From Gammaproteobacteria bacterium (GTDB lineage: Bacteria > Pseudomonadota > Gammaproteobacteria > Steroidobacterales > Steroidobacteraceae): 64,000 nt of DNA. Position 1 is the stretch's first letter; every line of letters begins with the position of its first letter. The translations under genes were made by a program, and so were the position numbers. This document shows positions 19,803 to 22,371 of the stretch, piece by piece. Below the pieces are notes generated by a model, which was not told where the DNA came from, did not search any database, and saw only the letters and a list, made by a program, of their open reading frames with translations. The stretch spans positions 39,956 through 103,955 of the forward strand of contig JANYAD010000047.1 of NCBI GenBank assembly GCA_025355165.1, in the 5' to 3' direction.

Positions 19803-20461
19803 TCCGCTTCGATCAAGTCCACAAGCGCTATCCCAATGGACGCGAGGCGTTGAACGGCGTGTCGTTCTCCATTGAGAGCGGCGCACTGACTTTTTTGACG
19901 GGACATTCGGGCGCCGGCAAGAGCAGCATCTTGAAGTTAATAGCTCTGATCGAGCGCCCGACCCGCGGCCAGGTGATCGTGAACAGCCGCAGCACGGCCG
20001 GCGTCAAGGCGCGCGCCATTCCGCAATTCCGCCGGCAAATCGGCGTGGTTTTCCAGGACCACAAGCTGTTGCATGATCGGCCGGTTGCCGACAACGTCGG
20101 TCTGCCGCTGGTCATCGCCGGAGTGGCACGGCGCGAGATCGATAAGCGCGTCAGGGCGGCGTTGGATCAAGTTGGACTGCTGGGCAAGGAGAAGTGCCTG
20201 CCATTGGAACTCTCCACCGGCGAGCAGCAGCGCGTAGGCATCGCACGGGCAGTGGTCGCGAAGCCCGCCGTGCTGATTGCGGATGAACCCACCGGTAACC
20301 TCGATCCAAAGTTGGCGCTCGAAATCATGAAGCTGTTCAAGCGCTTCAGCGAGGTGGGCGTGACGGTGGTCGTGGCCAGCCACGATCTGCACCTCATCGA
20401 TCAAGTCGGTGCCCGGCAAATCGTCCTCGCCGAAGGCCGCCTCTTAAGCGAAGCCACATGA
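19799..20461 (+). CDS. ftsE: Cell division ATP-binding protein FtsE
   Basis: MIRFDQVHKRYPNGREALNGVSFSI, GHSGAGKSS, STGEQQRVGIARAVV, LIADEPTGNLD; ATGA overlap with ftsY. Confidence 0.96.
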   Translation: MIRFDQVHKRYPNGREALNGVSFSIESGALTFLTGHSGAGKSSILKLIALIERPTRGQVIVNSRSTAGVKARAIPQFRRQIGVVFQDHKLLHDRPVADNVGLPLVIAGVARREIDKRVRAALDQVGLLGKEKCLPLELSTGEQQRVGIARAVVAKPAVLIADEPTGNLDPKLALEIMKLFKRFSEVGVTVVVASHDLHLIDQVGARQIVLAEGRLLSEAT

Positions 20462-21381
20462 GCGTGGGCGCCTACTTCAACCGCCACGCGCAAGTGCTGG
20501 TGGGCTCGCTGGGCCGGGTCGTGCAACAACCCTTTGCCACCCTGATGACCATGGGGGTCATCGCCGTGGCCTTGGCACTGCCGCTGTTCTTGAGTTTACT
20601 GCTGCAAAACGCACGCATCGCCAGCGGCAATTTGAACGAGGCGTACGACTTATCGGTGTATATGGACAAAAAGGCGGGCAGCGGTCGGGCGCAGTCTCTC
20701 GCCAAGCAGCTGCGGTTGCGCAGCGACGTCGCGGCGGTGCGCATCATCAGCGCGGAGCAGGCGCTCGCGGACTTTCGCAGCGATTCCGGATTTGGCAAGG
20801 CTCTCGATGCCTTGGGCGGCGAGAATCCGCTCCCCGATACGCTGGTGGTGACGCCAAGCTTATCGGCCAGCACGCCCAAAGGGACCGAGTCTCTCAAGAA
20901 GGCCATCGCCGAGATGAACGAGGTTCAGACGGTGCAAATCGATACCGACTGGATCAAGCGACTGCACGCCCTACTCGATTTGCTCAGGCGGGTGGTGATA
21001 CTGGCGGGCGTACTTTTGGGCGTCGGTATCGTGCTCATCGTCAGCAACACCATCCGGCTCGATATTCTGAACCGTCGCGCCGAAATCGAGGTCATGAAAC
21101 TTGTGGGCGCCTCCGATGCGTTCGCAAGACGGCCCTTCCTCTACAGCGGAGTCTGGTACGGCCTGGGCGGTGGCGTCTTGGCGCTGCTCTTGGTCGGCAT
21201 CGCCTCGGCGCTGCTGGCGCGACCCGTCGCGCAGCTGGCCTTTTTGTACCACAGCGATTTTCGTTTGGAGGGCCTGAAAATGCTCGCATGCGCAGGCGTT
21301 TTGGGCCTCGCCGTGACCCTGTCCTGGGTGGGGTCTTGGCTCGCGGCCACTCGCCATATCCGAGCAATCGAACCGTTATAA
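20458..21381 (+). CDS. ftsX: Cell division protein FtsX
   Basis: Four-TM FtsX architecture, SNTIRLDILNRRAEIEVMKLVGASDAFARRPFLYSG; ATGA overlap with ftsE. Confidence 0.95.
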   Translation: MSVGAYFNRHAQVLVGSLGRVVQQPFATLMTMGVIAVALALPLFLSLLLQNARIASGNLNEAYDLSVYMDKKAGSGRAQSLAKQLRLRSDVAAVRIISAEQALADFRSDSGFGKALDALGGENPLPDTLVVTPSLSASTPKGTESLKKAIAEMNEVQTVQIDTDWIKRLHALLDLLRRVVILAGVLLGVGIVLIVSNTIRLDILNRRAEIEVMKLVGASDAFARRPFLYSGVWYGLGGGVLALLLVGIASALLARPVAQLAFLYHSDFRLEGLKMLACAGVLGLAVTLSWVGSWLAATRHIRAIEPL

Positions 21382-21428
21382 GTATATGTTTTTAAATACT
21401 TTGTTGGCCTAGCGAACTCCTGCCCGAA

Positions 21429-21458
21429 TTAGCACTCTAAACCCAGCAGTGCTATTAT
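21429..21458 (+). promoter_or_regulatory. CIRCE-like inverted repeat overlapping a candidate promoter upstream of rpoH
   Basis: TTAGCACTC (21429-21437)-N9-CAGTGCTAT (21447-21455); CIRCE consensus TTAGCACTC-N9-GAGTGCTAA; candidate -10 TATTAT at 21453-21458. Confidence 0.6.
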
Positions 21459-21504
21459 GAGCCCATGTTTTCGGGCGAGAATTTTGCTTGGAGGAAGGTG
21501 TTAA

Positions 21505-22371
21505 ATGACTGCTGCTCTGGTCGCTAAACAAACAGGATTGGTGTTCGCGGGCCCCGTCGGGAGCCTCGACTCTTATATAGACCGCGTCTCGCAGATTCCG
21601 GTTCTATCGAAGGACGATGAAATCGCTTTGGCGGTGAAATTTCGTTCCGAGGAGGATTTGGACGCTGCTCGGCAACTCGTGCTTTCCCATTTGCGGTTCG
21701 TGGTGCACATTGCACGCGGTTACCTAGGCTACGGTCTGCCCATGGGCGACCTGGTGCAAGAAGGCAATGTGGGTCTGATGAAGGCGGTTAAACGCTTCGA
21801 CCCCAACGTCGGCGTGCGCCTGGTGTCCTTCGCCGTGCATTGGATTCGCGCAGAGATCCACGAATATGTATTGCGTAACTGGCGCTTGGTGAAGGTCGCC
21901 ACGACCAAGTCGCAGCGCAAGCTGTTTTTCAATCTGCGCAAGATGAAGAAGAATCTGGCTTGGCTGTCCGAAGCCGAGACGGCGGCGGTCGCCCGCGATT
22001 TAGGGGTCGATGTGTCCGACGTGCGGGAGATGGAACAGCGCTTGTCCGCGCGCGATATGTCCTTTGACCCGACGCCCGAGAGCGATGAGGAAGAGGCTTA
22101 CTCGCCGGCCATGTATCTGCCGGCCAGCAACGCGGACCCTGCTATCGAAGTGGAACAGGCCGAGTGGGAAGAAGATTCGACCGATCGATTGAGCATGGCG
22201 TTGGAAAAACTGGACGAGCGTTCTCGCAGTATTTTGAAGCGCCGCTGGATGACGGATGACAAGGCGACGCTGCACGAGCTGGCCGATGAATACGGCATCT
22301 CCGCGGAACGGGTGCGCCAGGTGGAATCCAATGCCATCAGCAAGCTCAAGGGCTTGATGGCCGCGGCTTAA
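21505..22371 (+). CDS. rpoH: RNA polymerase sigma factor RpoH (sigma 32)
   Basis: [84 protein letters not shown]; downstream of ftsYEX. Confidence 0.96.

Follow-up and report, generated by a model that had tools for sequence, protein, structure and literature searches.

The window analysed in this work, a 64-kb stretch of DNA, contains the local gene order ftsY-ftsE-ftsX-rpoH, in which rpoH (21505-22371, + strand) encodes a sigma-32 factor of 288 aa, as indicated by matches to TIGR02392 (408 bits; the cut-off for RpoH is 323 bits) and NF005143 (427 bits). The start codon of rpoH is backed by relatives whose alignments begin at residue 1, and a putative ribosome binding site region, GGAGGAAGGT, precedes it at 21490-21499 (+). 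The upstream neighbour ftsX (20458-21381, +) was identified from the list of open reading frames, the sequence and its translation; all of the fts names were read from translations rather than taken from a family search, and in E. coli rpoH likewise follows ftsX. Between the two genes, at 21429-21455 (+), lies the sequence TTAGCACTC-TAAACCCAG-CAGTGCTAT. Compared with the CIRCE consensus used here, TTAGCACTC-N9-GAGTGCTAA, this site has a left arm matching at 9/9 positions, a spacer of exactly N9 and a right arm matching at 7/9, i.e., two mismatches in total, just as the original prediction had described it, and 49 nt separate its end from the ATG of rpoH. The TATTAT hexamer which had been said to overlap the right arm was located at 21453-21458, sharing the last three bases of the arm. 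In a scan allowing up to three mismatches this was the only CIRCE-like match within the window, and such matches appeared in none of 100 dinucleotide shuffles of the window.

Conservation of the site was analyzed in two sets of rpoH upstream regions. The close set consisted of 80 rpoH relatives obtained by a contig search, with 64-76% protein identity, from Steroidobacteraceae, Woeseiaceae, Nevskiaceae, Steroidobacter agaridevorans, Thioalkalivibrio sp. XN8 and other Gammaproteobacteria; upstream DNA was available for 79 of these and all 79 carried a CIRCE with zero to two, mostly zero, mismatches, so that the site is conserved upstream of rpoH in relatives. The arms of these sites are nearly invariant while most of the spacer is variable, which is the pattern expected of selection on a protein binding site. 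The class set was drawn evenly from the class to which the window belongs and comprised 274 genomes, in which 149 rpoH upstream regions were read, these being the regions of the approximately 150 best-scoring rpoH genes. A CIRCE with up to three mismatches was present in front of rpoH in 110 of the 118 genomes carrying hrcA, as compared to 10 of the 31 genomes in which hrcA was not detected (Fisher p = 5e-12), and when a single genome per family was retained the numbers were 71/75 and 7/15, respectively. Shuffling of the rpoH upstream regions yielded a CIRCE at the same threshold in just 1 of 2980 cases. Eight of the 118 hrcA-positive genomes had no CIRCE at the rpoH copy that was read. Regarding the ten genomes with a CIRCE at rpoH and no detected hrcA, six are assemblies which are just 62-85% complete, and in another (G094) a fragment of hrcA lies at the end of a contig. 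On the basis of this distribution the inverted repeat in front of rpoH is a genuine and strongly conserved predicted HrcA site.

Two further observations were made on rpoH operators within the class. In the near-complete genomes G075 and G203 of family f76, in which hrcA was not detected, rpoH is preceded by a degenerate palindrome, TGTGCACTC-N9-GAGTGTTAA, together with a sigma-E-type -35 element; this palindrome may be a relic or may be used by another repressor. In G394, G545 and G637, all of family f14, and in G181 the rpoH-type operators share a dyad-symmetric double change, TTAGCAGTC...GACTGCTAA, which suggests that both half-sites may be co-evolving with the repressor.

Alignment of the rpoH regions on the CIRCE identified additional conserved blocks. 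A GGAACTT-like block begins 15-16 nt before the CIRCE, and spacer positions 11 and 12 are, unlike the remaining spacer, conserved as A in 75/80 and 72/80 close sites. The AA at these positions gives TCNAA at positions 8-12 and a composite GGAACTT-N16-TCNAA, which corresponds to a promoter of the sigma-E (RpoE) type. In the window this sigma-E-type promoter, which had not been part of the original prediction, reads cGAACTc-N16-TCTAA at 21413-21440 (+), the -35 being cGAACTc at 21413-21419 (consensus GGAACTT) and the -10 being TCTAA at 21436-21440, placed across the left arm and spacer of the CIRCE. A sigma-E promoter was taken to have a GGAACTT-like -35 and a TCNNA-like -10 separated by N15-17, and the predicted rpoH promoter has this form. 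It should be noted that the -35 of the window matches the consensus at 5/7 positions and that this pattern, taken by itself, is not uncommon in a 64-kb sequence, and also that the exact string GAACT-N17-TCTAA, found once in the window and at this place, compares to approximately one match with up to one mismatch expected by chance. Across the class the spacing is fixed: a GAAC core at N15-17 was present at 87 of 120 class rpoH CIRCE sites, as opposed to 0-11 of 120 when the search window was slid upstream, and at 1 of 15 groES CIRCE sites. In a sample of 398 genomes of the phylum the composite sigma-E and CIRCE pattern gave 17 matches, all in the class of the window and none in genomes of other classes, which were included irrespective of hrcA status. 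The genome itself carries rpoE (TIGR02939, 308 bits), with open reading frames that were read as rseA and rseB/mucB after it; upstream of rpoE lies CGAACTT-N16-TCTAT, the same form as the sigma-E-type promoter of rpoH.

The arms of the CIRCE also contribute to a candidate sigma-70-type promoter. A simple scan of 21300-21560 returned a single candidate, TTAGCA-18-TATTAT with a TG (21429-21458, 9/12 matches), composed of a -35 candidate TTAGCA at 21429-21434 (+), which is part of the left arm and lies 18 nt from the -10, and of an extended -10, TGC-TATTAT, over the right arm at 21450-21458 (+). A sigma-70 promoter was defined by a -35 and -10 at a spacing of 16-18 or by an extended -10, and the candidate agrees with this definition. 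The T at position 30, the last base of the -10, with which the right arm forms an extended -10, TGC-TANNNT, is found in 80/80 close sites and 109/120 class sites. Transcription would be predicted to start at about 21447 from the sigma-E-type and at about 21465 from the sigma-70-type promoter.

A search of the whole genome (4.16 Mb in 271 contigs) confirmed the presence of the repressor gene and of a second predicted operator, both of which had been proposed as checks of HrcA control. With hrcA present and the rpoH site conserved, the original prediction of HrcA control is supported. The hrcA gene (TIGR00331, 343 bits; cut-off 197) is on contig C120 adjoining grpE, and a CIRCE with two mismatches was found approximately 48 nt before groES (C241:2742-2768). 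The genome contains three CIRCE-like sites with up to three mismatches, the third of which (C233:8820, three mismatches) is inside an open reading frame and was taken as a chance match. At this threshold no CIRCE was found at hrcA-grpE of this genome, so HrcA apparently does not repress its own operon here, and the detectable HrcA regulon seems to be composed of groESL and rpoH. In the genus of the window the left arm of the groES CIRCE, read towards groES, is consistently TTAGCAGCC and not TTAGCACTC, as seen in L003:1501-1527 (G000:C241:2742-2768) and in the congeners L285, L292, L296, L298 and L300, and the site comes directly after a sigma-32-like CTTGAA...CTAT block. Across the class too the groES CIRCE sites are immediately preceded by a CTTGAA...CTATTA block that is similar to a sigma-32 promoter.

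Taken together, these features probably represent a functional CIRCE operator that is interleaved with two overlapping rpoH promoters, one sigma-E-type and the other sigma-70-type. The main alternative is that an ancestral operator has decayed in this genome, HrcA controlling rpoH in relatives and no longer here. The two right-arm mismatches of the window copy are A27T and G19C; the latter is absent from the congeners read and affects a position which is G in 118/120 class sites, and two members of the same genus (L303 and L304) carry three mismatches in their rpoH CIRCE, which would fit with decay. Against this, A27T is common to most of the genus, being its usual state, and is predicted to improve the overlapping -10 (TATTAT), two mismatches are likewise a conserved feature of the groES site in this genus, and every rpoH site read in the genus keeps a CIRCE-like palindrome with up to three mismatches. 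The two changes mean that the affinity of HrcA for the rpoH CIRCE of the window may possibly be reduced, but since the arms retain 16 of their 18 bases next to a freely drifting spacer, and since hrcA is intact, loss of the operator is less likely than reduced affinity, and we consider decay improbable.

Two other readings of the repeat are much less probable still. The repeat could be kept merely for its promoter elements (the sigma-E -10 and the sigma-70 -35 and -10), with no repressor binding, given that the arms supply parts of all three. This is, however, very unlikely, as positions 19-24 are outside the core promoter boxes (except for the TG) and yet are nearly invariant, arms identical to the CIRCE consensus are found in 61/118 hrcA-positive genomes, the presence of the CIRCE follows that of hrcA, and rpoH of E. 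coli has a sigma-E-type promoter without any CIRCE. Equally doubtful is that the inverted repeat works at the RNA level, forming a stem-loop in the leader of rpoH that serves as stability element or thermosensor, and not as an operator on the DNA. An influence of CIRCE on mRNA stability has been proposed for other bacteria; here the predicted transcription starts fall within or after the repeat, so that the transcripts would lack one or both arms and such a role is unlikely, and no Rfam match (e.g., to an mRNA thermosensor) was found in the window. A chance resemblance to CIRCE, for which nothing speaks beyond the two mismatches, has a negligible probability given the shuffles and is refuted by the conservation in 79/79 relatives.

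The preferred reading, a functional operator interleaved with both promoters, can be compared to known systems. E. coli, which was used as a control, has TGAACTT-N16-TCTGA before rpoH, a sigma-E-dependent promoter which we take to be P3. The likeness is a sigma-E-type promoter of the form GAACTT-N16-TCNNA at a similar place, and the difference is the absence of both operator and repressor: no CIRCE was found upstream of E. coli rpoH (the best match had eight mismatches) and no HrcA match above the cut-off was found in E. coli. To our knowledge the rpoH promoter of P. aeruginosa also has no CIRCE and its genome no hrcA. A sigma-E promoter, P3, is described for this rpoH gene (PMC9866376). As a sigma-E-type rpoH promoter is found also in relatives lacking hrcA, the sigma-E input appears to be shared and the CIRCE to be the part that goes with hrcA. 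In Geobacter sulfurreducens a CIRCE before rpoH was predicted in 2004, with an exact CIRCE approximately 50 nt before the rpoH start and another at groESL (PMC545781 Table 8). That prediction concerned a single delta-proteobacterial genome, with G. metallireducens not listed, and no sigma-E promoter overlap was reported (PMC545781), whereas here the CIRCE is interleaved with a sigma-E-type promoter and is nearly universal at rpoH in the hrcA-positive members of another class. The well-known HrcA/CIRCE control of groESL and of hrcA-grpE-dnaK-dnaJ has the same repressor, operator consensus and overlap with promoter elements; the difference is that here the target would be the sigma-32 gene, placing a repressor-type circuit above an activator-type circuit. 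In Helicobacter pylori HrcA also overlaps -35 and -10 elements and is stimulated by GroE (PMC6032397), so that there too a repressor operator is on the core promoter, although the targets are chaperone operons and there is no rpoH layer.

In the proposed mechanism the elements are laid out 5' to 3' as the sigma-E -35, the CIRCE, whose left half holds the sigma-E -10, and the sigma-70 extended -10 over the right arm. If bound at 21429-21455, a dimer of HrcA would occupy the -10 regions of the two promoters, keeping out both forms of RNA polymerase, and would most likely block rpoH transcription until HrcA is inactivated by heat or by unfolded protein titrating GroEL, with rpoH being derepressed once HrcA activity is lost. 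In H. pylori and B. subtilis HrcA is described as losing its DNA binding upon heat or GroE titration (PMC6032397), and one signal would thus relieve the repression of both rpoH and groESL. Envelope stress, through released sigma-E, would provide a further input at this position, and as one predicted HrcA site is interleaved with two promoters a single repressor probably gates a switch linking several stress responses. As groESL has a sigma-32-like promoter in addition to its CIRCE, it would be controlled by HrcA both directly and by way of sigma-32, in a coherent feed-forward loop closed by the feedback of GroEL on HrcA. No terminator-like site was found in the gap between ftsX and rpoH (21382-21504), and transcription reading through from ftsYEX could thus reach rpoH without passing the HrcA gate.

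Textbook accounts of heat-shock control usually present two alternatives, repression by HrcA/CIRCE or activation by sigma-32. The link between HrcA and rpoH had already been predicted in Geobacter sulfurreducens, and in P. aeruginosa rpoH is known to be under sigma-E control. What appears to be undescribed is a single operator interleaved with both promoters and near-universal in the hrcA-positive genomes of the class; rpoH, sigma-E and HrcA were not found together in the literature searched, and a 2003 survey of beta-, gamma- and epsilon-proteobacteria may include more cases of a CIRCE at rpoH. For HrcA-bearing Gammaproteobacteria as a whole we consider it fairly likely that one operator is built into the -10 elements of a sigma-E and a sigma-70 promoter, that HrcA would be the master gate over sigma-32 synthesis, and that the sigma-E rpoH promoter of E. 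coli would be the remnant left after loss of hrcA and the CIRCE. The predicted architecture stacks HrcA/CIRCE on sigma-32, with sigma-E as a third input, all within 45 bp, in the majority of the hrcA-positive genomes of the class. It predicts that GroEL occupancy would set the transcription of rpoH, beyond the stability of sigma-32 as in E. coli, and it would suggest how the arrangement of E. coli may have evolved.
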